A stretch of 40,177 nucleotides of DNA from the IMG/VR virus record IMGVR_UViG_3300042298_001801, positions 1 through 40,177 of that record; one strand, 5' to 3'. Source of the DNA: a virus. Made by a program: the position numbers and the translations under genes. The notes beneath the pieces were generated by a model. The model did not search any database. It worked only from the letters and a program-made list of their open reading frames with translations, and was not told the origin of the DNA. The number at the start of each line of letters is the position of its first letter. Within the stretch, counting starts at the first letter, position 1. This document shows, piece after piece, positions 1,677 to 38,124 of this stretch.

Positions 1677-1770
1677 GTTTCCGAAAAATGTAGGCAAAAC
1701 GCGAGATTTTTTGCAAAAAAACTTTTTTCAGGTTCAAAATCAAAAAAGTAGCCGATTTTTGTACGGAAAC
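1677..1770. promoter_or_regulatory. Nested A-tract and inverted-repeat control region
   Basis: This core of the divergent intergenic region contains outer inverted arms GTTTCCG (1677-1683) and CGGAAAC (1764-1770), each with an AAAAAT or ATTTTT block on the inner side. At its centre are a 14-bp palindrome TTTTTTGCAAAAAA (1707-1720) and an overlapping AAAAAA-C-TTTTTT (1716-1728). AGGTTCAAAA (1730-1739) recurs at 10.2-10.4 kb. The layout suggests bent DNA with operator sites shared by the two early promoters. The binding protein is unknown; the HTH product of the adjacent gene at 1798 is one candidate. Confidence 0.55.
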
Positions 1771-4292: not shown

Positions 4293-4675
4293 CCACAATT
4301 ACCGTACCCCCACCAAGCCGCGTCTTATCTCCAAACGGGGATAAGCACCATTGGACTAAGGTTAGCAAAGCCAAGAAGGAACACCGTTCGCTCGTTGCTA
4401 TTTTAGCTAAACAACAACAAGCCGCTCCCATATCGGGGGCGGTTGAGATACAAGTAGATTGGTACATGGCGAACAAATCCTTTTATTGCCCGATGGACAA
4501 CCAGAACGCAATTTCCGCATTAAAAGCCGCTATTGATGGCATTGTGGACGCTGGGATCATTGAGGACGATAACCGTAAGATTGTCAAGGCAATCTACCCT
4601 GTTACGCTATACCGAACGCGCAAAGAGCATCAGGGCAGAAGTGAAGTAGTGTTCACGATTCGGAGGGCGGCGTGA
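4289..4675 (+). CDS. rusA: RusA-like Holliday-junction resolvase
   Basis: This 128-residue protein has RusA family hallmarks: an N-terminal strand with PPPSRVLSPNG, then the helical segment MDNQNAISALKAAIDGIVDAGIIEDDNRKIVKAI (about residues 69-102), whose aspartates (in MDNQN, AIDG and the EDD pair) match the metal-binding positions of RusA. RusA dimers cut four-way junctions symmetrically and resolve recombination and replication intermediates before packaging. The start is GTG 4289, overlapping the previous TGA and preceded by GGAGG with 7 bases spacing. It overlaps the next gene in the same way (GTGA). Confidence 0.88.
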   Translation: MTTITVPPPSRVLSPNGDKHHWTKVSKAKKEHRSLVAILAKQQQAAPISGAVEIQVDWYMANKSFYCPMDNQNAISALKAAIDGIVDAGIIEDDNRKIVKAIYPVTLYRTRKEHQGRSEVVFTIRRAA

Positions 4676-5037
4676 GCAATCTTTTTTTTGCCGAGTTTTT
4701 CGGAGTAGGTAATTTAGCTGAGGCGCAAAGGCGTACACAAAGTGAGCAAACTCCTTATGATGACCGTATGCCCGAGACTGACCACTTTGAGAACCACCCT
4801 GTAGGTATTCGGATGTTCGATGCTACGGCGCGTCCTGTTGGTAGACCAAGAGGCAGGGGCGGGGTTCACCGTGTACCTTTGACTGAGTTAGAGCAAAGCA
4901 TCTGGGATCAGGTGCAAGAGGGAATTGCTCCAAGGTTTATTGCCGAGAACCACGGCTTAACTTGGAGCCAAGGACAAAGGGAGATTGTCCGGATTAAGAG
5001 CAAGATGCTCATGCGAGAAAGGAGAGCAAGAAAATGA
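4672..5037 (+). CDS. AT-hook plus HTH putative regulator
   Basis: The 121-residue product has an AT-hook-like patch VGRPRGRGG (residues about 56-64), which in this motif family inserts into the minor groove of AT-rich DNA. A likely helix-turn-helix follows (about 70-110, LTELEQSIWDQVQEGIAPRFIAENHGLTWSQGQREIVRIK), similar to sigma region 4 or LuxR-type HTHs, and the tail is very basic. GTG 4672 has GGAGGG just upstream. It overlaps the sigma-factor gene by 4 bases, so both proteins are probably made together. It could be a co-activator or a modulator of that sigma factor; no partner can be proven from sequence. Confidence 0.65.
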   Translation: MSNLFFAEFFGVGNLAEAQRRTQSEQTPYDDRMPETDHFENHPVGIRMFDATARPVGRPRGRGGVHRVPLTELEQSIWDQVQEGIAPRFIAENHGLTWSQGQREIVRIKSKMLMRERRARK

Positions 5038-5660
5038 AAGATGTTTATATTTCCCGTGAGGAATTGGACGTTCCATGCCCAAGCCCGGAGTATGACGTTG
5101 TGTTTGAGAAGTTAATTACAAAATGGTGGCTTCCGTTAAAGGCTCATGCTTACAAGATAGCAAAAAAATACGAGGTTGCGCGTGAGCTTCATATTGATAC
5201 GATGGCGAAACTTTGGGAGAACCGCTACAAGATTGATCGGCTTTACAATTTCTTTAATTGGGCTAAGACGATGATGGCGCGTTTATACATTGATGAGTTA
5301 AGGAAGTATTGGTATCACCAAAGGAATATCTATACAGATTACAAAACAAGGGATTTGGCATATAGCACGGATGGATCGCAAGAGGGAGAAACAAGCGGTA
5401 TGTCAACATACGGGCTTATTGGAGCCGACTCAGATAAAGGAAATGGGAGCAAATTTGTACAAAACGCCATCTTCGTTACGCAAATTACCAGCGTCCTTAC
5501 TGACGACGAGCGCAATATCCTAAAGGCGATTTACGATGAAGAACTTACAGCAGACGAGGCGGCAGAAAAATTGAATATCACTACTCCAGCACTTAAAAGC
5601 AAACTTTACCGGAGCCTAAGAAAGATGAAGCAAATCAGCGGGGCGGCTGGATATGTTTGA
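5034..5660 (+). CDS. Phage-encoded ECF-like sigma factor
   Basis: This 208-residue protein has the two-domain layout of sigma-70 family group IV factors. Region 2 lies at about residues 23-97, with the -10-binding and core-binding helix FFNWAKTMMARLYIDELRKYW, the counterpart of the usual 'LYRIARNLAIDELRR'. A variable linker covers 98-150. Region 4 lies at about 155-200 (LTDDERNILKAIYDEELTADEAAEKLNITTPALKSKLYRSLRKMK), an HTH that would read the -35 element. There is no region 3 or 1.1. It should bind host core RNA polymerase and direct it to phage promoters. AGGAG lies 8 bases before ATG 5034. Its place in the early block suggests control of late genes (inference). A non-sigma RinA/ArpU-type activator with similar HTH is the main alternative. 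Confidence 0.75.
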   Translation: MKDVYISREELDVPCPSPEYDVVFEKLITKWWLPLKAHAYKIAKKYEVARELHIDTMAKLWENRYKIDRLYNFFNWAKTMMARLYIDELRKYWYHQRNIYTDYKTRDLAYSTDGSQEGETSGMSTYGLIGADSDKGNGSKFVQNAIFVTQITSVLTDDERNILKAIYDEELTADEAAEKLNITTPALKSKLYRSLRKMKQISGAAGYV

Positions 5661-6966: not shown

Positions 6967-7727
6967 GCGAGGTTGAAGTGAAGCGGGAGCCGTTTGTGAT
7001 TATGCCGATTTGGGTTTACAACCTAAAGGCGGGGGCGACGTTCAACCAGGTTTACCTAGCGATCCAAACATTCACCGACGGCAATGGGCAAGGCTTCCCT
7101 ACATGGGAGGCTATTGCCAGCCGTGCCGATGTAACCGAGCGCACGGTTGGACGGGCAATCAAGTTCTTCAAAGATCGTGGGGCGATCACCGTTGAGAACC
7201 AATACCGAAACAATCAACAGGTGCAAAATCTCTACACTTTGCCGATGGACAATCCTCAAAATACACGCCCTGACACTGGAGTCACCCCGTCTATACGCCC
7301 TGACTCCACAGTCACCCCCGCCCTGACTCCACAGTCATACAGAACAAGAACCATAGAACAAGAACCATATAAAGAAAAAGAAAAAATACTAAAAGAAAAA
7401 GAAACCACGCCAAAAACTGAGGCGATTGAAGAGTTTGTCTCCAAGGTCAAGGCTAGTTACCCGCCCCGAACTGGAAACATGGGTTGGAAGTATTTCACTC
7501 AAAGAGCCGCGTCCCATTTTAAGACCGCCAAGAGTAAAGATGATTTTCTCCTAGCTGTGTTGGCATACAAAAAAGAGTGCGCCATGCTTGAAACTAGCCC
7601 GCGACACGTAATGATGCCAGCCACGTTCATAGCCAAGCACTACGACTACATTCCAACACACCAAGAGCAACCAGCGGAACGAAAGGTAATCAAGATTGCC
7701 CCCTGGAAGGAAATAGGAGCGCGATGA
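6963..7727 (+). CDS. Replication initiator (HTH N-terminus, O-like)
   Basis: The 254-residue protein has a winged-helix N-terminus of the HTH_36 type (about residues 8-75: PIWVYNLKAGATFNQVYLAIQTF...FPTWEAIASRADVTERTVGRAIKFFKDRGAI), as in phage and plasmid initiators. A low-complexity linker (about 100-148) follows, then a helical C-terminal domain (about 155-254) that could contact helicase. The linker is encoded by three 18-bp iterons and a long A-rich tract, the arrangement of lambda O and its origin. The predicted role is to bind the iterons, open the A-rich stretch and load the phage DnaB, whose gene overlaps it upstream. The initiator role is inferred from domain, context and DNA repeats together. 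Confidence 0.78.
   Translation: MSEVEVKREPFVIMPIWVYNLKAGATFNQVYLAIQTFTDGNGQGFPTWEAIASRADVTERTVGRAIKFFKDRGAITVENQYRNNQQVQNLYTLPMDNPQNTRPDTGVTPSIRPDSTVTPALTPQSYRTRTIEQEPYKEKEKILKEKETTPKTEAIEEFVSKVKASYPPRTGNMGWKYFTQRAASHFKTAKSKDDFLLAVLAYKKECAMLETSPRHVMMPATFIAKHYDYIPTHQEQPAERKVIKIAPWKEIGAR
7267..7337. repeat. Three 18-bp iterons inside the initiator gene
   Basis: Copies lie at 7267-7284, 7297-7314 and 7320-7337. Copies 2 and 3 are identical (GCCCTGACTCCACAGTCA). Copy 1 differs in its centre (TGAC-ACTGGA-GTCA). Each contains a dyad TGACT-N4-AGTCA or TGAC-N6-GTCA. Start-to-start spacing is 30 and 23 bp. The translated stretch is Pro/Thr/Ser-rich linker, so the DNA rather than the protein is probably what is conserved. 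Confidence 0.8.
7338..7405. other. A-rich tract, putative DNA-unwinding element
   Basis: Directly after the iterons the top strand is almost free of T and very A-rich. It opens with a perfect tandem of the 14-mer AGAACAAGAACCAT (7341-7354, 7355-7368) and continues with repeated AAAGAAAAAGAAA blocks. An AT-rich purine tract next to initiator sites is the classic place for duplex melting. Confidence 0.6.
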
Positions 7728-8183: not shown

Positions 8184-8312
8184 CTTTCGTTGCTTGGCTA
8201 GGAAGCGGGATATTCTAGCAGCTTCCTCGGGGGTGCAAACCCACCAATACTGTTTCGAGCCGGGTGGATGTTTGCGAGGTCTGCCGCGTGGTTTCTTTGG
8301 GGGTTCGGTCAT
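8169..8312 (-). CDS. 47-aa AT-hook microprotein
   Basis: ATG 8312 overlaps the upstream stop as ATGA and the frame runs to TAG at 8169-8171. The product begins MTEPPKKPRGRPRKHPPG: the PRGRPRK core is a textbook AT-hook, which binds the minor groove of AT-rich DNA. It continues with a short helical tail containing WWVCTPEEAARISRFLAKQ. The stop codon lies inside the stem of the convergent terminator. Very small AT-hook proteins could affect DNA bending or host nucleoid proteins; this is inference. The overlap and the motif make it a likely real gene although it is below usual size cut-offs. Confidence 0.65.
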   Translation of the reverse strand: MTEPPKKPRGRPRKHPPGSKQYWWVCTPEEAARISRFLAKQRKTSPN

Positions 8313-8488
8313 TTTTCCCTGTACCCTTCCGCTCGGAGTTGCTTTATCTTGGCTTCGTACTTCTTTTTGTTTTTGAATAGCTCGATTCCATAGAACGGGG
8401 AGCCGTCTTTGTAAAAGTCTTTCCCGTTGTGCGCTGAAATACTGTACTTGCTTGATCCAACGCCGTACATGGTCGTGTAGAGCTTCAT
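8309..8488 (-). CDS. Unknown 59-aa basic protein
   Basis: I place the start at ATG 8488, because GGAGGT lies 6 bases upstream (complement of 8495-8500) in a leader ending ACACAATG. A frame extension to ATG 8515 would cover that ribosome site. The start overlaps the previous stop as ATGA. The protein is basic and lysine-rich in its second half (ELFKNKKKYEAKIKQLRAEGYREK, a charged helix). The first half is strand-like with tyrosines. No family recognised. It lies just upstream of the AT-hook microprotein in the same unit. Confidence 0.7.
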   Translation of the reverse strand: MKLYTTMYGVGSSKYSISAHNGKDFYKDGSPFYGIELFKNKKKYEAKIKQLRAEGYREK

Positions 8489-8883
8489 TGTGTTACCTCC
8501 GCGTTTGGTGACCATGCAACAAGATTACCGTTTGCGCTATCGTTTCCAGCTACCCAAGTGATCCCGTATTCAGATAACTCGTTGCGGTGCGTTTGCATAA
8601 TTGCGGCGCGGTAGTCTTCGTCTCTCATGTGGAATCGGTCAGATCGTCGGTAGCGATTGGCAAAGTCTTCCAGGCTATCTGCTGGTACGCGGTTGCCGCC
8701 AAACAAGACAGCCGGGTGATTTGGGCTTAGGCGTGCGTTTATCATGCCACGGTTTCCGATTTCTTGAATTAGCTTTGCTTTTTGGGCTTTGTAATGATCC
8801 CAGCTAACTGTTTTGGATTGGAAGGACTGGTGAAGGTCTGCGTATTCGGATTGAATTTGGGCTACGGTTCTTAATGTTTGCAT
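8485..8883 (-). CDS. Unknown 132-aa protein
   Basis: No family recognised. ATG 8883 is preceded by AGGA about 9-10 bases upstream and a leader ending CAACACAATG. The N-terminal half is a long helical, probably coiled-coil region (TVAQIQSEYADLHQSFQSKTVSWDHYKAQKAKLIQEIGNRG). The second half is mixed, with RVPADSLEDFANRYRRSDRF and a strand-like C-terminus (GITWVAGNDSANGNLVAW). No membrane segment. It belongs to the second leftward block, co-transcribed with several small proteins of unknown role. Confidence 0.7.
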   Translation of the reverse strand: MQTLRTVAQIQSEYADLHQSFQSKTVSWDHYKAQKAKLIQEIGNRGMINARLSPNHPAVLFGGNRVPADSLEDFANRYRRSDRFHMRDEDYRAAIMQTHRNELSEYGITWVAGNDSANGNLVAWSPNAEVTQ

Positions 8884-8938
8884 TGTGTTGTATCCTGCTA
8901 TGAGTTCGGCATAGCTCCCTAGAATCTCTGGACTCTAG

Positions 8939-8967
8939 GCAACCCTGCCGGGGTTGCTTTGCTTTTA
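8939..8967 (+). terminator. Rightward hairpin with T-rich tail
   Basis: GCAACCC (8939-8945), loop TGCCG, GGGTTGC (8951-8957), then TTTGCTTTT. It is oriented to stop rightward transcripts, although the local genes run left, so it would block read-through or antisense transcription into the leftward block. Confidence 0.5.
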
Positions 8968-9195
8968 ATCTACCGGGGCGTACCCTGGTTTATACATCTT
9001 GACGGGGGGATTCTGCATCTGCAATTTCTTTGCAAGTTCAATCGTGAAGCCTCTCCAGTACGATTTATCTTGATGGCATAGGATATGAGCGTGTCCAGTC
9101 TCCCGGTCTACTAATTCCAGCCACCAGCCGCCATGTTGTTTGCCCATCCACTCAAGTTGCAATACGTGAGTATCGTTCTGCTCAATGATCGTCAT
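8965..9195 (-). CDS. Unknown 76-aa protein
   Basis: No family recognised. ATG 9195 overlaps the previous stop as ATGA, with GGTGGTG shortly upstream. The product is tryptophan- and histidine-rich (LEWMGKQHGGWWLELVDRETGHAHILCHQDKSYWRGF), which suggests a small beta-sheet core, and a helix follows (TIELAKKLQMQ). The stop lies at the end of the rightward hairpin. It is one of five small proteins in the leftward block. Confidence 0.7.
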   Translation of the reverse strand: MTIIEQNDTHVLQLEWMGKQHGGWWLELVDRETGHAHILCHQDKSYWRGFTIELAKKLQMQNPPVKMYKPGYAPVD

Positions 9196-9428
9196 AATTT
9201 CACCACCATCGCGCTAGGGTCTAACCACGGGTTGATACCGTCCGCATCCGTGACTCTAAACCTTTCGAATCCTTGATCTATCGCCCATTTCTTAGCCTCT
9301 TCAAACCGTGACCCGTCGCCTACGGTGATAACATCCTCTGCCCATTCCGGGTCACCCTTTCGGTGTCCCCATAATACGAATTCTTTCATAGTTCCATTGC
9401 CTCCTACTTTTTCGATTGTGTATTTCAT
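9192..9428 (-). CDS. Unknown 78-aa protein
   Basis: I place the start at ATG 9428 (MKYTIEKVGG), because GGAGG lies 8 bases upstream and the start shares a base with the previous stop (TAATG). A longer frame to 9500 would overlap the upstream gene and has no better site. The protein has a strand-like N-terminus, then a beta-alpha-beta-looking stretch (AEDVITVGDGSRFEEAKKWAIDQGFERFRVTDADG). No family recognised and no membrane segment. The layout resembles a tiny ferredoxin-like domain, which is only an impression. Confidence 0.7.
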   Translation of the reverse strand: MKYTIEKVGGNGTMKEFVLWGHRKGDPEWAEDVITVGDGSRFEEAKKWAIDQGFERFRVTDADGINPWLDPSAMVVKL

Positions 9429-9634
9429 TACTTCGATCCTCCATAAACGAAAGCCGCCTTGCACTCCATGAATTGAGTTTGGGTTACCGAAGCTCCACAC
9501 GCTTCACGAATCGCGTTCACGTCGGCAGATCGTCCAGCACCAGGGATGCTGAAGTAATGGCAAGCGACGAAGATGAAGGCTGAGGCTAGGAAGATGCCTA
9601 GCGTGGCGAGTAGAGTTAGTTCTATTTTATTCAT
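9428..9634 (-). CDS. Small membrane-anchored protein, 68 aa
   Basis: One hydrophobic helix occupies residues about 6-28 (ELTLLATLGIFLASAFIFVACHYF), followed by a 40-residue hydrophilic tail with two further cysteines (ACG, MECK) that could form a disulfide outside the membrane. The FVAC segment resembles a lipobox only weakly, since position -3 is F. The leader has AAAGGT before ATG 9634, like the gene at 10088. Orientation is probably tail-out. It is not next to the lysis genes, so exclusion or envelope modification is as plausible as lysis. Confidence 0.68.
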   Translation of the reverse strand: MNKIELTLLATLGIFLASAFIFVACHYFSIPGAGRSADVNAIREACGASVTQTQFMECKAAFVYGGSK

Positions 9635-9701
9635 TTGGTTTTACCTTTGCCTGGCTCTTCAGTTAGGGGCGGCAATCCCTAAGACCCCGAAGGGTTTCGC
9701 C

Positions 9702-10088
9702 TTAGATTCTGGTTAAGTTGTAGCCAATCTCATTCTTGCCGTAGTATGTGCGCTCCAGCAGGTAACCACACTCTTTCAGGGCGTCGCATAGGGAATTGAT
9801 ACCAACTCCAGCGCATGAGCTAATCTTGCCATGCTCAGCCGTGCCACGCTCAAAAAGCCATTTGAGAGAGTAAGCAAGGCAAGCGGAGTGCCTATCATAG
9901 CCGCAACCACTAGCAGAAGCCAGCTTGATACCGCCGATGGTGTAGACCGTGGGGATGTTGCCCCATGTGCGGGATGATGTAAAGACTACGCCAAGCTGAA
10001 TTGTGCCGCCTGACTTTTGGATTAGGTTTTGGGAGAGGAAGAAGTCTTGGATTCGAGATTCGGTTGCGTTGAGTTTTTGTGTTTTCAT
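9702..10088 (-). CDS. First gene of second leftward block, unknown 128 aa
   Basis: No family recognised. ATG 10088 follows AAAGGT with 7 bases spacing. The protein has an N-terminal helix, a strand-rich middle (GTIQLGVVFTSSRTWGNIPTVYTIGG), a segment with cysteines and histidines (SGCGYDRHSACLAYSLKWLFERG), and a C-terminal part with CAGVGINSLCDALKECGY. Five cysteines in so short a cytoplasmic protein are notable and could bind metal, but their spacing fits no common finger. It is promoter-proximal to the leftward block and faces the repeat-rich control region. Confidence 0.7.
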   Translation of the reverse strand: MKTQKLNATESRIQDFFLSQNLIQKSGGTIQLGVVFTSSRTWGNIPTVYTIGGIKLASASGCGYDRHSACLAYSLKWLFERGTAEHGKISSCAGVGINSLCDALKECGYLLERTYYGKNEIGYNLTRI

Positions 10089-10494
10089 TTGGTTTACCTT
10101 TGCGCCGATTGCTCGGCTACATAATCATTATTACATAAATAATTGGAATTGGTAGGGTTGAGGCGCATTTCCATCAAATATGTCATGCGTAGGTTCAAAA
10201 TTGAGGCGTGATTATGGGCAAATCATCAAAAAGATCAAATGTATGCGGTGATTACATTTAACCTATGATAAGATTGTAAACTTAGGTTCAAAAAGTTAGC
10301 CTTGGCTAATTTAGGTTCAAACATATAGGCACAAACTCGCCTCAAAAAACGTTCAGGGGGAAAGGGGGAACGGCCAAAATCGTCAGAAATATCATGCGAT
10401 TTGAACCTACGCCCATCCAAGAAAACAACAAAATCATCAAAAAGATCATGTTTCGCGCATCATGTGGGTATGCTCCGGGCGTCTGGAGAAATAT
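10089..10494. promoter_or_regulatory. Second divergent control region, repeat-rich, about 400 bases without a gene
   Basis: The region between the leftward block and the late block holds TAGGTTCAAA at 10190-10199, 10283-10292 and 10312-10321, and its inverse at 10400-10409. The same AGGTTCAAAA occurs at 1730-1739. There is an 18-bp direct repeat (10220-10237, 10431-10448) and an inverted pair CGTTC/GAACG (10350-10354, 10368-10372) around a G-rich loop. AT-rich stretches near 10120-10140 and 10250-10280 could hold -10 elements, but I see no clear -35/-10 pair. It probably carries late and leftward promoters, perhaps sigma-factor-dependent, and operators. Confidence 0.6.
10220..10448 (+). repeat. 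18-bp direct repeat pair
   Basis: AAATCATCAAAAAGATCA occurs at 10220-10237 and 10431-10448, 211 bp apart, with no mismatch. The second copy lies about 47 bases before the amidase start. Each copy holds a GATC. This spacing and position fit a regulatory protein site or looping element. Confidence 0.8.
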
Positions 10495-11055
10495 ATGCTA
10501 GCGATAGATGCAGGTCACGGGATGATGAATACAGGCATTGGCTATGATCCAGGCGCGACGGCTCGGCACGGCGGCAAAACCTACAAGGAAGCTGATATAG
10601 CCCTGGAGTACGCACTCACGATGAAGCAGGTGTGTATTGACCTTGGGATACCGTACAAGCTGACCAGAAGCGTTAAGCTGCAACCCGCGCCATTGAAGCA
10701 CCGAGTATCCCGTATGAAGGGCGCGACGGCATTGATTAGCTTCCATTGCAACGCAGGAGGCGGTACAGGTACGGAGACGCTATTTGGTAGCTCGAAAGAT
10801 GTTGCCTGGTCTAGATCGGTACAGGAAGCGGCACTAAAGGGCTTGGAGCTTAGGGATCGGGGTATCAAGGACGATTCAACGATTAGGCACGGCAAGTTAG
10901 CGATACTCCAAGGCTCGTTCCCGTCTGCTCTCTTGGAGCTTGGGTTCATTGATAACCGGGATGACGTACACCGGATGACCGAACGGGCAAGGCGTTTGAA
11001 GGTTTGCTACGGCATCGCCACGGCATACATCCGAATATATGGAAACAAAAACTAG
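10495..11055 (+). CDS. Endolysin: N-acetylmuramoyl-L-alanine amidase (Amidase_3)
   Basis: The 186-residue protein is a single Amidase_3 domain. The zinc ligands are H8 in AIDAGHG, E32 in YKEADIA and H84 in ISFHCNA, and the catalytic glutamate is E148 in LLELGFIDN. It cleaves the bond between MurNAc and the stem peptide of peptidoglycan. I chose ATG 10495 because GGAG lies 6 bases upstream; a frame start at 10462 has none and adds residues before the first strand. No signal peptide, so it needs a holin for release. No cell-wall-binding domain is present. It is the first gene of the late block, next to three small membrane-protein candidates. Confidence 0.93.
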   Translation: MLAIDAGHGMMNTGIGYDPGATARHGGKTYKEADIALEYALTMKQVCIDLGIPYKLTRSVKLQPAPLKHRVSRMKGATALISFHCNAGGGTGTETLFGSSKDVAWSRSVQEAALKGLELRDRGIKDDSTIRHGKLAILQGSFPSALLELGFIDNRDDVHRMTERARRLKVCYGIATAYIRIYGNKN

Positions 11056-11224
11056 GGATTTGGCTAATGAAATTCATTATAGGGAAGCACAAAACATTAT
11101 TAGGTGGCACGGCATGAATTACGGCTTATTGGCTCTTGCGGTGTGCTTGGGGACGTTTGTGGCGGATATTCTGAAGATTATGCTTGCGGCGTTCATCGAA
11201 GTGCGGAGCGGTCAAGAGTTGTGA
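11039..11224 (+). CDS. Single-pass membrane protein, holin candidate
   Basis: A 61-residue protein with one long hydrophobic helix (about 28-52, YGLLALAVCLGTFVADILKIMLAAF), a charged N-terminal segment of about 25 residues and a short charged tail. ATG 11039 lies within the end of the amidase gene (17-base overlap). Position, size and topology fit a class III holin or pinholin. Sequence alone cannot separate this from the neighbouring 11506-11703 product as the actual holin. Confidence 0.65.
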   Translation: METKTRDLANEIHYREAQNIIRWHGMNYGLLALAVCLGTFVADILKIMLAAFIEVRSGQEL

Positions 11225-11245
11225 ACGAAAAAGAGGTGATGAGCG

Positions 11246-11509
11246 TTGAGTTTTGATATGTCTGGACTTAATAAGCAGGTGCCGTTATGGGGATTTATTC
11301 TCTCTGTTCTCGTTGCGTTCGGTGGAGCGGCTACGGTTTGGGGGCAATCGAAACAGGAACTGGTTGCGCTCAGGAATGACCTTCAAGCGGCAAAGGTTCA
11401 GATGGAAGAAGAGAGGCGGGAAAGCAACGAGAGGTACAAGGCGATCAGTGACCGATTGGCGTACATCTCCGAAACGGTTTACGAGATTAAAGGAAAAGTG
11501 AACAAATGA
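11246..11509 (+). CDS. Membrane-anchored coiled-coil lysis protein
   Basis: The 87-residue protein has an N-terminal membrane helix (about 12-33, VPLWGFILSVLVAFGGAATVW) followed by a continuous charged coiled coil (about 36-87). The start is TTG 11246, with AGAGGTG 7 bases upstream; the ATG at 11258 is a shorter alternative. The topology fits an inner-membrane spanin (i-spanin) or an XhlA-like lysis accessory. No separate outer-membrane lipoprotein was seen to complete a two-component spanin. It overlaps the next gene as ATGA. Confidence 0.68.
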   Translation: MSFDMSGLNKQVPLWGFILSVLVAFGGAATVWGQSKQELVALRNDLQAAKVQMEEERRESNERYKAISDRLAYISETVYEIKGKVNK

Positions 11510-11703
11510 AAGACAAACTAATTCTTGCAGGTGCTTTAAGCGGGCTATTGGGAGCCGCTAGAGCCGATTACGAAGCGTTCAAGTCATGGAAGAGCGCAAA
11601 GGACGCGTTGACCTATGATTGGAACATTGCGTTCTGGCGATGGTTCCAGGGCGGAATCATTGGAGCGGTTACGGTGGCGGGACTCTTTGAGGTGGCGGCA
11701 TGA
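11506..11703 (+). CDS. Small membrane protein, holin candidate
   Basis: A 65-residue protein with a mildly hydrophobic N-terminus (LILAGALSGLLGAARA) and a stronger C-terminal hydrophobic helix (about 45-64, RWFQGGIIGAVTVAGLFEVA), separated by an amphipathic region. ATG 11506 overlaps the previous stop. Together with 11039-11224 and 11246-11509 it forms a lysis cassette. Which of the two short proteins is the holin and which a modulator cannot be decided here. Confidence 0.62.
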   Translation: MKDKLILAGALSGLLGAARADYEAFKSWKSAKDALTYDWNIAFWRWFQGGIIGAVTVAGLFEVAA

Positions 11704-11885
11704 GCAACCGAATACGCTTTGGCGTTCGCGTCCCCTTCTTCCGTAATGCGGGGGTGTTGGTGTTCCGCAAGGTATCTCCAGCGAATACCCAACGGTTTAG
11801 CGAGTTGGTGGGCTTGGTGCGCTTGCTGCTGAATGAGCAAGGGCAATCCAGCGACTCTATTGTGTTTGAAGTTACTCCGTCATGA
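11700..11885 (+). CDS. Unknown 61-aa protein between lysis and terminase genes
   Basis: No family recognised. ATG 11700 overlaps the previous stop and the end overlaps the next ATG, so it is translated in the operon. The protein is basic at the start (NRIRFGVRVPFFRNAG), continues with a helix (SELVGLVRLLLNEQGQ), and lacks a membrane segment. Short proteins at this spot may help terminase or lysis, but nothing specific is visible. Confidence 0.65.
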   Translation: MSNRIRFGVRVPFFRNAGVLVFRKVSPANTQRFSELVGLVRLLLNEQGQSSDSIVFEVTPS

Positions 11886-12280
11886 GCGAACATCTTCCGG
11901 CGTCCGTAGATATAGCCTCGCTGGTGCAATCACTAGCGGGGTGCGACTATAACCATTTTGACATTGCAGAGATTATCGGGTTGCCCGTGGATCAGATGCG
12001 GCGGGACTATGCGAACCAACTAAAGGCGCGTGAGGTGTTGATTGATGATGCCTACTATTGCGCTCAGAGTCTTGTTAAGCGGCTTCGTCGGCACTTGGAG
12101 GCAGGGACGCATGAATCTATGCCACGGCACGTATTCAACGAGAGTGCCAAATTGGTTGTGGAGACGCTCAAAAGTAAGGGTGGTTGGACGGTTAACCCTG
12201 TGACGGCTACCCTGAACTACGACATGAGTAACCCCGAAGTGGTCAAGGCTTTGAAAATTCTCGGAGTCGAGCTTGGCTAA
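11882..12280 (+). CDS. terS: Terminase small subunit (probable)
   Basis: The 132-residue product sits directly before, and overlaps, the large terminase gene. It begins with an HTH-like segment (HFDIAEIIGLPVDQMRRDYANQL, about 27-50), the usual DNA-recognition module of small terminases, followed by a helical oligomerisation region (about 55-95) and a C-terminal tail with MSNPEVVKALKILGVELG that could dock on the large subunit. Small terminases form rings that select phage DNA for packaging. Assignment rests on position, size and the HTH; sequence identity to known families is not obvious. Confidence 0.68.
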   Translation: MSEHLPASVDIASLVQSLAGCDYNHFDIAEIIGLPVDQMRRDYANQLKAREVLIDDAYYCAQSLVKRLRRHLEAGTHESMPRHVFNESAKLVVETLKSKGGWTVNPVTATLNYDMSNPEVVKALKILGVELG

Positions 12281-13955
12281 ATCGTTGACCTTCCCCAACG
12301 GGAAGAAGTCAATCATTCTCACGGATGCCGAGAAGGAAGCGGCGGCGCGTACATTGCGATTAGCCGAACGCGGCGTATGTCTTTGGGGCAATCAGTTCAA
12401 GGACAATGCGCGGGATGCCTGTAAGTTTATCTTTGGCTACATTCACACGCAAGAGGAAACCACGGGTGCAGAGATGCGGATACCTCGTAAGCGGTATCTG
12501 ATGAACATTGCCCGGAATTGGTACAAGTGCCGCAGATCGGGCAGGACGTTCTACATCCACAAGTCACGGCGTTTGATTGTGTCGTGGTTTGTGCGCTCCC
12601 TAGAGCTATTTGCGGCGGGTTTCAGTAGCGCGGGCTTTGGTATTGCCGCGAAGCACTTCCAGGGCATGAACGGTGCTTGTGCGTTCGTTTGGCGTGTGTA
12701 CTTCCTGTATGAGAGCTTGCGCGTCAATTACCCTGAATGGAACCTAGAGAAATCTAGTCCTCGGGGTGCGGTGCTGAGTAAGGAATTAGACACGCTGATT
12801 CTGCCCAACGGAGCTATTTTCCACGCGCTCAATAGCGATAAGGAAGGCGTTCGCGGTGGCGGTATGTCTTATATCGCTTATGAGGAATTATCGGGGTACT
12901 CCAATCCTGATGCGGTCATTGGGCAGGGTCGAATCATTGTGCAAGGTCCAGCGGGTGAGGTCGGCGGCATGGTTTGCGCCATCTCTAACGCGAGTGCCAA
13001 TCCTGAGTATAAGGCTCAGATCAAGGGTGACCACCAGATCAGACCTGTGGTAGTGCCAGACAAGACGTACAACGCGGATAGCGGCGGTTTGGTGCAAGTG
13101 ATCCACTACAAGGCAGACCCGGCGAAGGATGACGCTTGGGTGACGCTAACAAAGGCTGGAGTACCGCCCCGTGAGTGGGAAGCGGAAATGGAACTCAGCG
13201 ACGAGATACATTCAGGCGATCCCGTCCACGCGCAATTTGAGTACGCGATCCATGCTCCTACATCTGGCAGACATGAGTTATGGAAGATTGACCCTAACGG
13301 CGAACTTATTGGATCGTGGGACTGCTCCACTAGCACGGTTAACTTCTCGTTCGTGCTGAAGCAGATCACAAAGAATCGCCACGGCGAAGATCAGGTGCAA
13401 ACGTTGCTTGGCTATGACTCCGGGGGCGCATCGAACATCTATGCCTTTTGCGAGGGCTTGATGGCTCATTTGCGGCGTAGTTATCCAAGGCTTGAAGGTT
13501 GGCGCATTGAACACTTTGGCGACCCTGCAATGACCGCTCGTAGTGGAAGCGATCCCAACGGACGCACCATGCAGGAGATTATTCGCTCACTTGGCTATAA
13601 CATCAAGGTCGCCCCAACTCAAAACGTGCAAGATCGTCTCAACGGAACGGACAGACTCCAATCTCAGACGTTATCCGATGGCTCCCCGCGTTGGGTAGTC
13701 AATGAGTACGGATGCCCTACGCTTGTTGAGGCTTTGAAGGGCGCGTACTGTTGGCGTGAGATTAAGAATGTGCATACGGGCGGGCAGACGGTGTACAAAG
13801 AGCCAGCGAAAAATGGATTTAGTCACGCTGCGGATGCTAACCAATACGGCGACTTGGTAGCAGATCGAAGGATTAACGCACCAAAACAATCTAGGGAAAC
13901 ATCAGGAGGAATGAAGTTCAATGAGAAAGCGGCATTTGGTAAGCCTAAAAGGTAA
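12273..13955 (+). CDS. terL: Terminase large subunit
   Basis: The 560-residue packaging motor has an ATPase N-terminus with a degenerate Walker A region IHKSRRLIVSWF (about 95-106), a probable Walker B MSYIAYEEL (about 197-205), then a RNase H-like nuclease C-terminus with YDSGGAS (about 380), HFGDPAM (about 414) and HAADANQYG near the end as candidate metal-binding aspartates. It pumps DNA into the procapsid and cuts it. The start is TTG 12273, with GGAG 7 bases upstream. It overlaps the GroES-like gene by 35 bases. Packaging type (pac or cos) cannot be decided by eye, though the circular assembly suits pac-type permutation or terminal redundancy. Confidence 0.88.
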   Translation: MAKSLTFPNGKKSIILTDAEKEAAARTLRLAERGVCLWGNQFKDNARDACKFIFGYIHTQEETTGAEMRIPRKRYLMNIARNWYKCRRSGRTFYIHKSRRLIVSWFVRSLELFAAGFSSAGFGIAAKHFQGMNGACAFVWRVYFLYESLRVNYPEWNLEKSSPRGAVLSKELDTLILPNGAIFHALNSDKEGVRGGGMSYIAYEELSGYSNPDAVIGQGRIIVQGPAGEVGGMVCAISNASANPEYKAQIKGDHQIRPVVVPDKTYNADSGGLVQVIHYKADPAKDDAWVTLTKAGVPPREWEAEMELSDEIHSGDPVHAQFEYAIHAPTSGRHELWKIDPNGELIGSWDCSTSTVNFSFVLKQITKNRHGEDQVQTLLGYDSGGASNIYAFCEGLMAHLRRSYPRLEGWRIEHFGDPAMTARSGSDPNGRTMQEIIRSLGYNIKVAPTQNVQDRLNGTDRLQSQTLSDGSPRWVVNEYGCPTLVEALKGAYCWREIKNVHTGGQTVYKEPAKNGFSHAADANQYGDLVADRRINAPKQSRETSGGMKFNEKAAFGKPKR

Positions 13956-14595
13956 GCGAGTAGCCTATCCACCGATGCAGGGCGTCACGATGGCGCGTGG
14001 CACTATGGCGGTTGCGCTCTATGAAGGCGAGGATACGCAAGGGGCGATCATTCTCACGGACAAGAGCCAGGACAAGGCTATTAGCTGGTTTGGTCGCGTG
14101 GTTGCTGAGAATCATTCAGGATTTAATCTTGGTGATGAAGTAATTACTCTCCCGATGCAAGGCAAGATTTTAGAGCGTTGGAATTATCGTGGTTGCAAGT
14201 ACCCGATAGTCCAGATGTTAGGTATTGAGGTGGACGACTCGGCAGGTGAAGCTGAAGTAAGAAAGCCAGGTATGGAGACTCAAATCGTTATGAAAATTGA
14301 AGAAAAAGGAATCACGCTACCCAAGGGAAAGATTTTAGGCTTTGTGAAGTATCACAACAAGACGGCTGGAGGACTAATTTTGCCAGACCGCGCTAAGAAG
14401 TTTGATTCTACGTGCGTTGTGCTTGCCGTAGGCGAAGGGAGCGAGGTTAAGCCCGGTGATAGGGTGATGTTCTCTGAAAGGGGCGTCATTGAGGCGCATG
14501 GCGATAGCTTCAAACAGTTCTACCCGGAACTAAGCGAAGAGGAAGGACGGTTGATCGTAGTGAATGAGTCGGCACTCTGGGCAATAATTGAATGA
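13921..14595 (+). CDS. Tandem GroES-like co-chaperonin
   Basis: The 224-residue protein contains two GroES-fold copies. Copy 2 (about 130-224) shows KTAGGLIL at 147-154, matching the GroES mobile loop KSAGGIVL, then VVLAVGEGSEVKPGDRVMF, close to the GroES block EVLAVGNG...KVGDIVIF, and the end VVNESALWAIIE, matching MSESDILAIVE. Copy 1 (about 20-112) has TQGAIIL at 39-45 in the loop position and WFGRVVAENHSGFNLGDEVI. GroES loops carry a hydrophobic tripeptide that binds GroEL. The protein probably caps host GroEL to fold capsid protein, as T4 gp31 does. AGGAGGA precedes ATG 13921. It lies between terminase and portal. A tandem GroES is otherwise known from plant Cpn20. Confidence 0.8.
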   Translation: MRKRHLVSLKGKRVAYPPMQGVTMARGTMAVALYEGEDTQGAIILTDKSQDKAISWFGRVVAENHSGFNLGDEVITLPMQGKILERWNYRGCKYPIVQMLGIEVDDSAGEAEVRKPGMETQIVMKIEEKGITLPKGKILGFVKYHNKTAGGLILPDRAKKFDSTCVVLAVGEGSEVKPGDRVMFSERGVIEAHGDSFKQFYPELSEEEGRLIVVNESALWAIIE

Positions 14596-16412
14596 AAGAT
14601 TTTGTAATTGACGTAAACGATAAAAAGGCAGGTACTAAGTTCAACAAGAACGATGAAGTATCAAGGCTAAATCTTGCCCAGCAGATCATTGATTATGCGG
14701 ATAGTGACGAGAGTACGAAGGGAGATTTGCGCCCCGTATGGGATGAAACCACTTCGCACTATTACACGGTTAGCCCTGAGAGACTGATTACGGGACACAT
14801 GGCTTCGCCTAGCAAGATGCCCGTACCTGTTTTGTCTAGCCGAGTAGACGCGATTGTAAACTACATTACGGGTGCGATTACGAACGCATACCCGTACTTT
14901 GTGGGTAACGCTTCGGGTGATGACTATAAGAAAGTCAATCAAGCTGAGGCGATGGTTCAATGGGCTTTAGACCGTGACGGCTTCCCTGCTAAGGCTAGGC
15001 TCTCGGCATGGCAAGCTGTAATGTTCAACAGATCGTATTTCTACGTGACGTTTGGGGCTACGCCTAAGAGTATGCCGGACGCTTTGGAAGGAAGCGCACC
15101 CGTTTCTAATGATCCAGAGTTTGCAGAGTGTGGCGTCCGCGTTAAGGTGATCCACGCTAAGGACTTTATTGCGTACCCGAATAATTGCGAGAGTTTGTCA
15201 GAGTGTGTGTTTGTCGGGTTTAAGGCAGATCGTACACTAAGGCAGATTCGCGCCTTGATGGATCAGGGGTACTTTATTGAGCAGGAACTGATGGAGTCTA
15301 CAAACGCGGGTGAAGACTTCCAGAAGGAAATTGACGCAGGAGGACCATCAATATCATACGAAGACACCGTAGACGAGCCAGTGAAGACCATCATTGGGCT
15401 AGCCAAACTGGATTTGGACAAGAAGGGCAGTTCGTCGTGGTGGGAAGTCGAAGTTTTAGAGTCAAGCCGTCAAACCCTGAGAGTAGTACCTTACACGTAC
15501 CACAGACCATGCTTCTTCGCCCCGACGATTTTACAGCCTTACGGCGAGATATTGACATCAGACTCGGTAGCAAGGAGAATTCTTCCAGCGCACAAGATGA
15601 TTCAGGAAGCGGTGAATCTACAACTGGACGGGATGATGGTGACGACCTTCCCGATGCAATTCTATAACAAGGACAAGGGATTGCCGCTTGAAGTCAATAG
15701 CTACTCTCCGGGGCAACTTGTAGGATGCGAAGGTTTGCCAGAGTTTGTATCGTTCGTAAGCCAATTTAATCCAAGCATGACAGCGGCGATTATTGACATG
15801 GGCAATACGCTTGCCACTCAGGCTGGCTCTATTCCAGACACGGGTACAGGGACGCAATACAACGCTAATTCTACAGCGGCGGCAGTGAACGCAACGGAAA
15901 GCTCGAAAGATGTTTCGGTCAATGCCTACCTTTCCATGTACGCGGGAAGTGAACTCGGTGAAATGGCTGAGTACGTGCGCCATCTTTGCTATGAAAATTA
16001 CGATTTGCTTTATGGCGTCTATGGCGCGGCTTTGCCATGCAAAAGTCAGGACGACTTAGACGTAAAAACCCATTTCACGGTCAATGGTCGCAACGCTGGA
16101 AGTTCTCCACAGAGCCAACTTGCAGGTATTGATGCGATTATGGAAAGGCTTAAATCCGTGGATATGTCAAATCCGGTAGAACGTGCATTGCTAAAAGCAT
16201 TTGTACGCGCCACCAACGTCAGCAACGAACAAGAGGTAATGAATGAGCTTGAACAACTTGAACAGCAGATCACCGAGCAACTCGCCGCCCAAGAGCAAAT
16301 GCAGTCAGGAATGGGCGACATGGCACAAGGGATGCCGCCTGGAATTGATCCAAGTGCTTACGCGGAGGAGGGAGCGATGCCTGGAGGACTTGACGAGTTC
16401 GCAGGGTATTGA
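14592..16412 (+). CDS. Portal protein (podovirus type)
   Basis: The 606-residue product follows the large terminase and the GroES-like protein, and has the usual podovirus portal length. Features are a long helical N-terminus, a central alpha/beta core with KVIHAKDFIAYPNNCESLSECVFVGF (about 180-210), a loop-rich middle and a C-terminal glutamine-rich coiled coil with a flexible Gly/Met/Pro tail. Twelve copies form the ring at the vertex through which DNA passes, and it binds terminase and the tail adaptor. ATG 14592 overlaps the previous stop (ATGA). Confidence 0.87.
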   Translation: MKDFVIDVNDKKAGTKFNKNDEVSRLNLAQQIIDYADSDESTKGDLRPVWDETTSHYYTVSPERLITGHMASPSKMPVPVLSSRVDAIVNYITGAITNAYPYFVGNASGDDYKKVNQAEAMVQWALDRDGFPAKARLSAWQAVMFNRSYFYVTFGATPKSMPDALEGSAPVSNDPEFAECGVRVKVIHAKDFIAYPNNCESLSECVFVGFKADRTLRQIRALMDQGYFIEQELMESTNAGEDFQKEIDAGGPSISYEDTVDEPVKTIIGLAKLDLDKKGSSSWWEVEVLESSRQTLRVVPYTYHRPCFFAPTILQPYGEILTSDSVARRILPAHKMIQEAVNLQLDGMMVTTFPMQFYNKDKGLPLEVNSYSPGQLVGCEGLPEFVSFVSQFNPSMTAAIIDMGNTLATQAGSIPDTGTGTQYNANSTAAAVNATESSKDVSVNAYLSMYAGSELGEMAEYVRHLCYENYDLLYGVYGAALPCKSQDDLDVKTHFTVNGRNAGSSPQSQLAGIDAIMERLKSVDMSNPVERALLKAFVRATNVSNEQEVMNELEQLEQQITEQLAAQEQMQSGMGDMAQGMPPGIDPSAYAEEGAMPGGLDEFAGY

Positions 16413-16413
16413 C

Positions 16414-16512
16414 GTGCCTAAACTTCAGGGCAAGGCAGAGGAATTACGCATTTTGATTACGACACTCCAGACATTAAAAGAAGGGCGTATGCCTTTTGAG
16501 GAAAACCTATGA
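16414..16512 (+). CDS. Small 32-aa ORF between portal and scaffold
   Basis: The frame starting GTG 16414 has AGGG 7 bases upstream and ends in ATGA overlap with the scaffold gene. The product is a single predicted charged helix (KLQGKAEELRILITTLQTLKEGRMPFEENL). A longer frame reaching back into the portal gene (16243) is unlikely. The next gene's GAGGA lies in its last codons, so it could simply be a leader for translational coupling. Confidence 0.45.
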   Translation: MPKLQGKAEELRILITTLQTLKEGRMPFEENL

Positions 16513-17303
16513 CAGACGATCAAGAACTAATCATTGATGACATTGACGAACTAGAGGTTGATTTAGGCGAAGAAGAATCAACCCCCGAACAAGAAGACGC
16601 AGGGGCATCACAAGTGCCGCAAACGCCCGTGCAACAGCCACAGCAGTACGTTTCTGAGGCTGATCGGCTAAGGCAACTAGAAGCTGAGGCAAACCGCATG
16701 GGTTACAGCCTGAGAGAAGCGGCTGAAGAGGAAGAAGAGGAAGATGAGGACGAGTTTTCTTTTGACGATCCTGATATTCGGGAAGTTAAGAAGCACGTCA
16801 AGAAGCAGAGCGCAGATTTAAGTGAATTGCGCGATGAAATCAGGGCAGAGCGCGTGTTTACAAACAACATCGAAAGCCTTGTGAGAGACGCGCAGGAATC
16901 ACTTGCTCAACTTGGGTCAGAGCTTACGGCAGATGGGCGCGACAAGCTGGTTAAGCTGCTTAATCAATCCGATCCTATTGCGCTCCAAAGCTTGATGCAG
17001 GACAACACGCGCAAACTTGCGGTGATTGCAACGGTGATGACTAATCCAGAGTTTTCCAAGACCGCAAAAGGCACTACGAAGGCATACAGCCCCATTGGTA
17101 GGGTGGATGCTCCTGGTATCTCGCGCACACGTAGCGATGCGGCTCCAACAATCCGGATCAGCGACATTGACAAAGATCAGATGGAGTTTATTAAGGCATC
17201 AGCAGAGCGTGACGCTAGGGCAAAAGGTACGACGGTGGACGCTGAGATTAAAGCGGCAGTGAAGGATTACGCGAAACGTGGTCTTTTGACAATGAAGAGG
17301 TAA
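16509..17303 (+). CDS. Capsid scaffolding protein (probable)
   Basis: The 264-residue protein has the composition of phage scaffolds: very acidic N-terminus (about 1-90, including a run of glutamates near residue 75), a coiled-coil centre (about 95-150, DIREVKKHVKKQSADLSELRDEIRAER) and a basic C-terminal helical end (about 220-264) suited to bind capsid protein. It sits between portal and capsid genes. Scaffolds direct procapsid assembly and then leave. GAGGA lies 7 bases before ATG 16509. No family match can be claimed by sequence; assignment is by composition and order. Confidence 0.72.
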   Translation: MTDDQELIIDDIDELEVDLGEEESTPEQEDAGASQVPQTPVQQPQQYVSEADRLRQLEAEANRMGYSLREAAEEEEEEDEDEFSFDDPDIREVKKHVKKQSADLSELRDEIRAERVFTNNIESLVRDAQESLAQLGSELTADGRDKLVKLLNQSDPIALQSLMQDNTRKLAVIATVMTNPEFSKTAKGTTKAYSPIGRVDAPGISRTRSDAAPTIRISDIDKDQMEFIKASAERDARAKGTTVDAEIKAAVKDYAKRGLLTMKR

Positions 17304-17309
17304 GAAACC

Positions 17310-17807
17310 ATGAGAAAAGAAGAAAAGACAGAAGCAGTAGCCGAGTTAGAGGCGACTTTAGGCATTGTTGACACTCCAAAGGCTGAACCAACGGGTACAG
17401 AGCTTGTTGCAGAGGCGTTTTACGAGAGTTTGAGCGACACTAGACCAAGCAACACGACCATCATGGAGTGGGTAAACGAGATCAACCAAAAGCAAGACAA
17501 GATCAAGTTCTGCTATGCCGCAAATACCACTATGGGCGTAGGCGCGGGTGCTGAGGACGGGGTTCAGATGATGCTTAACAAGGGCTACGTCAAGGTATCT
17601 CGCCAGGTGCTAGATGATTTTGGTGCGCCTAAGTGGGATAATCCTTCTATTCACGTTCTTGCGTTACGGAGAGAGCTTGCAGACGCGGAAAGAAGGGAGC
17701 TTAACGAACAGGCAAGGCGTTCGCTTAAACACTTTGGTCAAGGCGGCGTAGAGGGCAAATACGAGCCAGGAGCAGGTGAAACGTTCGTTGTAGGAGCGCA
17801 AAACTAA
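17310..17807 (+). CDS. Unknown 165-aa head-region protein
   Basis: No family recognised. AGAGGT precedes ATG 17310. The N-terminus is helical and acidic (KEEKTEAVAELEATLG), the middle has KIKFCYAANTTMGVGAGAEDGVQMMLNKGYVKVSRQVLDDFG, and the C-terminal helix is charged (ALRRELADAERRELNEQARRSLKHFG). It lies between scaffold and capsid cluster and ends directly before a strong terminator. It may be a structural or assembly factor. Confidence 0.68.
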   Translation: MRKEEKTEAVAELEATLGIVDTPKAEPTGTELVAEAFYESLSDTRPSNTTIMEWVNEINQKQDKIKFCYAANTTMGVGAGAEDGVQMMLNKGYVKVSRQVLDDFGAPKWDNPSIHVLALRRELADAERRELNEQARRSLKHFGQGGVEGKYEPGAGETFVVGAQN

Positions 17808-17813
17808 CAAATT

Positions 17814-17837
17814 GGGGGCAAATAAGCCCCCTTTTTT
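17814..17837 (+). terminator. Intrinsic terminator before capsid genes
   Basis: GGGGGC (17814-17819), loop AAATAA, GCCCCC (17826-17831) and a run of six T. This is an ideal rho-independent terminator. It lies only 7 bases after a stop codon, in the middle of the late block. Confidence 0.9.
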
Positions 17838-17911
17838 GCGTTTGAGACAAAAATTTTGTGCCGTTTGTTACTTAACATAGAGGCTCGGTGCCTCATTAGG
17901 AAAACAAACAC
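17838..17911 (+). promoter_or_regulatory. Capsid-gene leader with stem-loop, putative promoter
   Basis: This 74-base gap follows the terminator and must contain a new promoter if the terminator works. Candidate elements are TTGAGA or TTGTGC and TAACAT (about 17872-17877), but the spacing does not fit sigma-70 well, so a phage sigma promoter is possible. The 5' end of the message would carry a small hairpin GAGGC-TCGGT-GCCTC (17880-17894). AGGA follows, 11 bases before ATG 17912. A 5' hairpin close to the start often stabilises capsid mRNA. Confidence 0.5.
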
Positions 17912-38053: not shown

Positions 38054-38124
38054 TGTACGGAAGGTGACCGCAAACCGTCCTTCTTCCGTACATTCTAGCC
38101 ATAATCGCCTCAGCACTTGAGGCG
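38054..38124. repeat. Inverted repeats between convergent late and early blocks
   Basis: The first pair is TGTACGGAAG (38054-38063) and CTTCCGTACA (38083-38092), with a 19-base spacer. The second is CGCCTCA (38106-38112) and TGAGGCG (38118-38124), with a 5-base loop. No T-run follows either, so they are not classic intrinsic terminators, but they lie exactly where transcription of the two blocks meets. The first arm shares TTTGTACGGAA with the early promoter region at 1758-1768. Confidence 0.6.

Follow-up and report, generated by a model that had tools for sequence, protein, structure and literature searches.

We found that the 406-base gap at 10089-10494 of this viral genome carries a 16-bp palindrome, CATSA-N6-TSATG, at four sites. 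This palindrome, which the preliminary description of the region had missed, is the strongest conserved putative operator of the gap. With a probability of roughly 0.6, we consider the gap to be a divergent promoter/operator region in which a dimeric regulator, acting on the palindromes, would switch transcription from leftward to rightward late genes. This kind of control region is well known, and the present gap is a new example of it.

The window, that is, the whole stretch of DNA analysed, is a virus record of 40,177 bases. The record is probably circular, because its two ends share the same 72 bases. According to a hand-picked gene list, the gap is the longest in the window. It had been described as the only one longer than 300 bases, which holds except for the sole other such stretch, 1-339, which arises from the record ends. 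By gene direction in the hand-picked list of open reading frames, there are two divergent gaps, 1628-1794 (hereafter, the early gap) and 10089-10494. The early gap separates the leftward from the rightward early block; the longer gap lies between a leftward block (8309-10088) and a rightward late block, and so occupies the position, between divergent transcription units, of a phage divergent operator region.

10089-10494, no strand: intergenic control region between divergent genes, the leftward 9702-10088 and the rightward endolysin gene 10495-11055

The endolysin, an Amidase_3 match, opens the late block, which also encodes a putative small and a large terminase, a head-tail adaptor, and virion proteins. 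The large terminase was so called because of its distant similarity to TerL of BcepC6B and Pmp11 (33% and 32% identity over a quarter of its length), and the putative small terminase was assigned by position, the gap being 1.4 kb upstream of its gene. In named phages, no match was found for the DNA of 9600-11100, the portal-like protein, or the protein of 9702-10088, and no relative of the terminase or of the 9702-10088 protein was found in genome contigs. The predicted structure of the latter protein had a mean pLDDT of 57.7 and was not used. Neither an integrase nor a CI-type repressor was found among the proteins searched, which covered a subset of the small open reading frames.

Some other elements were observed in these surroundings. 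A hairpin, GCCGA-TTGC-TCGGC, is present at 10104-10117 beside the leftward start. In the early gap, TATAAT (region 1784-1798) ends 5 bases before GTG 1795 and 8 bases before ATG 1798; with this spacing, the early mRNA transcribed rightward may lack a leader. The hairpin CGCCTCA-GCAC-TTGAGGCG is found at 38106-38124, between the converging late and leftward blocks, and it contains TTGAGGCG, a sequence that occurs three times in the gap.

The preliminary description had listed four copies of a 10-mer, one of them inverted, and an 18-bp perfect direct repeat in the gap, with a fifth copy in the early region. All of these are present at the positions claimed; the fifth is AGGTTCAAAA at 1730-1739. 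Exact TAGGTTCAAA occurs four times in the window, always in the gap. The repeats are as follows.

10190-10199, plus strand: TAGGTTCAAA box E1, left arm of a 13-bp inverted repeat; kept in the relative
10283-10292, plus strand: TAGGTTCAAA box E2, in the exchangeable middle; absent from the relative
10312-10321, plus strand: TAGGTTCAAA box E3, in the exchangeable middle; its 13-mer ATTTAGGTTCAAA recurs in a second phage (phage 2, below)
10400-10409, minus strand: TAGGTTCAAA box E4, an inverted copy that forms the right arm of the same 13-bp repeat; kept in the relative
10220-10237 and 10431-10448: 18-bp direct repeat AAATCATCAAAAAGATCA
10158-10165, plus strand: TTGAGGCG, copy 1
10201-10208, plus strand: TTGAGGCG, copy 2
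10338-10345, minus strand: TTGAGGCG, copy 3, inverted
1729-1738, plus strand: CAGGTTCAAA box in the early divergent gap, overlapping AGGTTCAAAA

As chance controls, we used 2000 dinucleotide shuffles of the gap and 780 other 406-base windows of the genome. Any 10-mer with at least four copies, counted over both strands, was obtained in 3 of the 2000 shuffles and in none of the genome windows. The inverted repeat is perfect, with arms at 10187-10199 and 10400-10412; one of at least 13 bases was seen in 4/2000 shuffles and 0/780 windows. Direct repeats of at least 18 bases appeared in no shuffle and in seven windows, all of which overlapped the iterons of the O-like gene. Three copies of TTGAGGCG were not reached in 20000 shuffles. 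When one mismatch was allowed, AGGTTCAAA was not enriched over the whole window (18 observed, 13.0 expected).

Viral contigs were probed with protein and DNA sequences, and one close relative was obtained, in IMGVR_UViG_3300042509_001467. Its DNA has a mean identity of 93.5% over 9630-17908, and its gap is 395 bases long, as compared with 406 in the window, a difference of 11 bases. The two gaps consist of nearly constant flanks around a replaced middle.

10145-10230, no strand: left flank, 86 bases identical in the relative
10231-10325, no strand: exchangeable middle, unrelated sequence in the relative
10326-10420, no strand: right flank, 95 bases identical in the relative

A further run of 36 bases (10426-10461) is also identical. 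The flank identity by itself is only moderate evidence for function and counts for less than deep conservation would, because the relative is a close one and the coding DNA to the left (9630-10029, in 40-base bins) is also 97-100% identical; the adjoining leftward gene is 98% identical. The relative's version of the hairpin at 10104-10117 is CCCGA-TCTC-TCGGG, a paired change. The identical right flank includes a CGTTC-AGGGGGAAAGGGGG-AACG stretch at 10350-10371.

In the relative, the outer inverted pair of TAGGTTCAAA and the three copies of TTGAGGCG are retained, but the two inner TAGGTTCAAA copies and the 18-bp repeat are lost; the relative's middle contains AAAACG-type repeats where the window's contains the two inner boxes. 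The longest direct repeat in the relative's gap is 11 bases, which was equalled by 88/1000 shuffles, and no 10-mer exceeds two copies, a level that 337/1000 shuffles match. Much of the original list of repeats is private to the window genome, because the repeats in the relative's gap are near the shuffle level. The earlier suggestion of operators in a late control region is supported by the position, the clustering, and the retention of the outer copies, but the 18-bp repeat is not conserved.

Scanning of viral contigs with the pattern TAGGTTCAAA-N{180,210}-TTTGAACCTA gave the relative and one further contig, L016. L016 was rejected as another relative; the match sits inside an open frame, and neither blastn nor tblastx showed the piece compared to resemble the window.

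The palindrome sites lie in the identical runs, except that site B extends into the middle.

10172-10187, no strand: palindrome site A, CATCAAATATGTCATG, perfect; kept in the relative
10224-10239, no strand: palindrome site B, a half site (left) in the window; the relative has the perfect CATCAAATCTGTCATG
10381-10396, no strand: palindrome site C, CGTCAGAAATATCATG, one mismatch
10435-10450, no strand: palindrome site D, CATCAAAAAGATCATG, perfect

In the case of site B, the replaced middle of the relative supplies the right half, giving CATCAAATCTGTCATG. Perfect matches to CATSA-N6-TSATG occur at two places in the 40,177-base window and at three in the relative's 80,667-base record, and all of them are confined to this gap; several palindromic copies are thus confined to the region, on which the motif was itself defined. 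With one mismatch, there are six further matches besides site C in the window and nine in the relative's record. The clustering was not reproduced in any of 2000 shuffles, a control that is not independent, as the motif was read off this very region. The spacing is 52 bases between A and B and 54 between C and D; B and C are 157 bases apart in the window versus 146 in the relative. The last difference is about one helical turn, which could be luck.

A scan of viral contigs for paired palindromes gave 45 stretches, one of which was the relative. The 44 others look like chance, 41 of them lying in open frames of at least 100 codons, so that the palindrome gains no support from a wider family. 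Some of these frames carried at least three sites and were of low complexity in appearance. The three outside such frames were L023, L031, and L053, and L023 and L053 are the same sequence.

The exact AGGTTCAAA box is also restricted in its distribution: five of five copies in the window and four of four in the relative's record lie within divergent gaps. One of these four belongs to a second, distant phage. Two phages seem to be joined in the relative's record, either by assembly or as a real cointegrate; its 10-50 kb part has an early block running leftward and another block running rightward, and L065 and L066 (G001:C1:10001-50000) contain a second large terminase gene and a second portal-like gene. 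The divergent gap of this phage 2 (L065:18730-19609, 880 bases) has only short stretches in common with the window. Among these is TTTTGAACCTAAAT, 13 nt identical to box E3; the 10-mer was produced in 45/20000 shuffles of the 880-base gap. A palindrome, TGTA-N9-TACA, is common to the exchangeable middle and the phage 2 gap, with a weak match (blastn E 0.04-0.15). In phage 2, there are also a G-rich counterpart of the 10350-10371 stretch (GGGGGTACGGGGGACGAG at L065:19102, five mismatches) and, near L065 position 3890, a copy of the 38106-38124 hairpin with one change. A tblastn search with the sigma factor of the window gave no homologue in the 40 kb of phage 2 (L065 and L066), in a record shared with a sigma-bearing phage. 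The AGGTTCAAA box is probably a regulatory site read by a shared factor, because it recurs in divergent gaps of both phages, and no sigma homologue was found in phage 2. For three TAGGTTCAAA boxes, the distance from the box end to a following -10-like hexamer is 60, 58, and 60 nt, and the phage 2 box ends 82 nt before TAGACA-17-TATATT; this spacing is a lead only, as it was noticed post hoc and each box of the window and of phage 2 offers one to six hexamers.

Candidate promoters and a candidate regulator can be placed on this arrangement.

10211-10238, minus strand: candidate leftward sigma-70-like promoter, TTGATC-16-CATAAT, with site B covering the -35
10469-10474, plus strand: candidate rightward -10, TATGCT, without a -35 and next to site D
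4672-5037, plus strand: candidate regulator of 121 aa, with a GRPRGRGG stretch and a predicted C-terminal trihelical HTH
5034-5660, plus strand: sigma-70/ECF-family sigma factor, in the replication block; 62% identical in the relative

At the same leftward promoter position, the relative has ATGACA-16-CATAAT. For the rightward TATGCT, the best -35 match is 2/6, and site D adjoins the place where a -35 would lie. We infer both promoters from such matches, whose counts are at background in the window's gap, the early gap, the relative, and phage 2. The gene of the candidate regulator is directly upstream of the sigma gene, and its protein is 93% identical in the relative. Its trihelical C-terminus is predicted confidently (pLDDT about 93-94, residues 71-110), and the best PDB matches are HTH domains of response regulators, KorA, and ArdK, with E 0.17 or worse.

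We propose that palindromes A-D are bound by a dimeric DNA-binding protein of the phage, for which the HTH protein of 4672-5037 is a plausible candidate. Its binding to A and B would close the leftward promoter, the one with its -35 under B; from C and D, the protein would act on a weak rightward late promoter, opening or timing it. A second factor, of the phage or the host, may bind the non-palindromic TAGGTTCAAA boxes upstream of the promoters in both divergent gaps. As a bolder and rather unlikely elaboration, the gap could be a modular cassette: constant operator arms would hold the helical register, while the promoter-bearing core with its own repeats is swapped, and unrelated phages of one host would have the TAGGTTCAAA factor in common. 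If this were true, a phage could reset the switch without changing its regulator.

The preliminary description had also suggested sites for the phage sigma factor, and the repeats would then be promoters or recognition elements of that factor. The phage does encode a factor of the sigma-70/ECF type, as do phiEco32 and 7-11 with their own sigma of the sigma-70 family. PMC8948821 describes bipartite late promoters read by a phage sigma in 7-11, treats 7-11 together with Cronobacter phage GAP52, and gives the consensus promoters tAATGTAtA and GTAAtg-(16)-aCTA for phiEco32 and 7-11; GAP52 has a weak homologue of the present sigma (23.9% identity, E 1e-3). However, a common promoter element upstream of the late genes was not found here: in a coarse search, no 4+4-base bipartite motif was common to at least three of the five late gaps tested, and the 16 such pairs recurring twice, a high number, were nevertheless matched by one of 50 mononucleotide shuffles. 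Unlike in phiEco32 and 7-11, the two consensus elements are not found as a set; the only match in the gap is an unconvincing AATGTAT at 10238, in the exchangeable middle. Moreover, AGGTTCAAA is present in the early gap and recurs in phage 2, in which no sigma homologue was found. We therefore consider sigma sites unlikely.

About as unlikely is a cos or pac packaging site with the repeats as binding sites of the small terminase. A large, repeat-rich gap upstream of the endolysin and terminase genes would suit such a site, and the putative small terminase is identical at 131 of 132 residues in the relative, matching the identical flanks. The presence of AGGTTCAAA in the early divergent gap argues against it, and the 72-base closure of the record fits any circularly assembled genome and gives no sign of ends.

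A structured RNA or leader formed on the minus strand from the nested inverted repeats is still less probable. Minus-strand folding exceeded that of shuffled sequences in the window (z -2.53, 0/100) and the relative (z -2.09, 2/100), with no excess on the plus strand (z -0.23, 37/100, and z -0.10, 41/100, respectively). However, the inverted E boxes alone account for much of the minus-strand folding, the paired flanks are identical and hence without covariation, and the gap had no Rfam match.

A second replication origin, with the repeats as iterons, had been left open; the gap is indeed repeat-rich and partly AT-rich, and its middle has direct repeats in both phages. The lambda origin has its iterons inside the initiator gene, with an A-rich tract after them. 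The O-like gene of the window has this layout at 7266-7415, with a purine-rich tract at 7371-7415 following three dyad iterons of the TGACTCCACAGTCA type at 7266-7337, and the gap does not. The relative's initiator has diverged (51% identity) and its three iterons are different (GTGTATCT type), with the same tract and layout. A second origin is very unlikely, because the lambda-type layout is found in the O-like gene. A site of recombination or attachment, which constant flanks around a middle exchanged in the relative might suggest, is extremely improbable, with no integrase among the proteins searched (again a subset of the small open reading frames).

Returning to the divergent operator region, its closest model is that of the lambda operators, a divergent early/late control region with dimeric regulators. 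As in lambda, palindromes are clustered between divergent units, one of them here over a candidate -35; unlike in lambda, no CI/Cro-type gene was found here, and there are four spaced palindromes and two other repeat families. The T4 MotA box is likewise short and non-palindromic and precedes a -10, at about 12 nt, whereas three of the boxes here lie 58-60 nt, and that of phage 2 82 nt, before -10-like hexamers.

If our reading is right, the cis elements of an early-to-late switch are named for an uncharacterised lineage of sigma-bearing phages, and a testable candidate regulator is provided. The box common to two distant phages would indicate a host or shared factor that is needed for late transcription.
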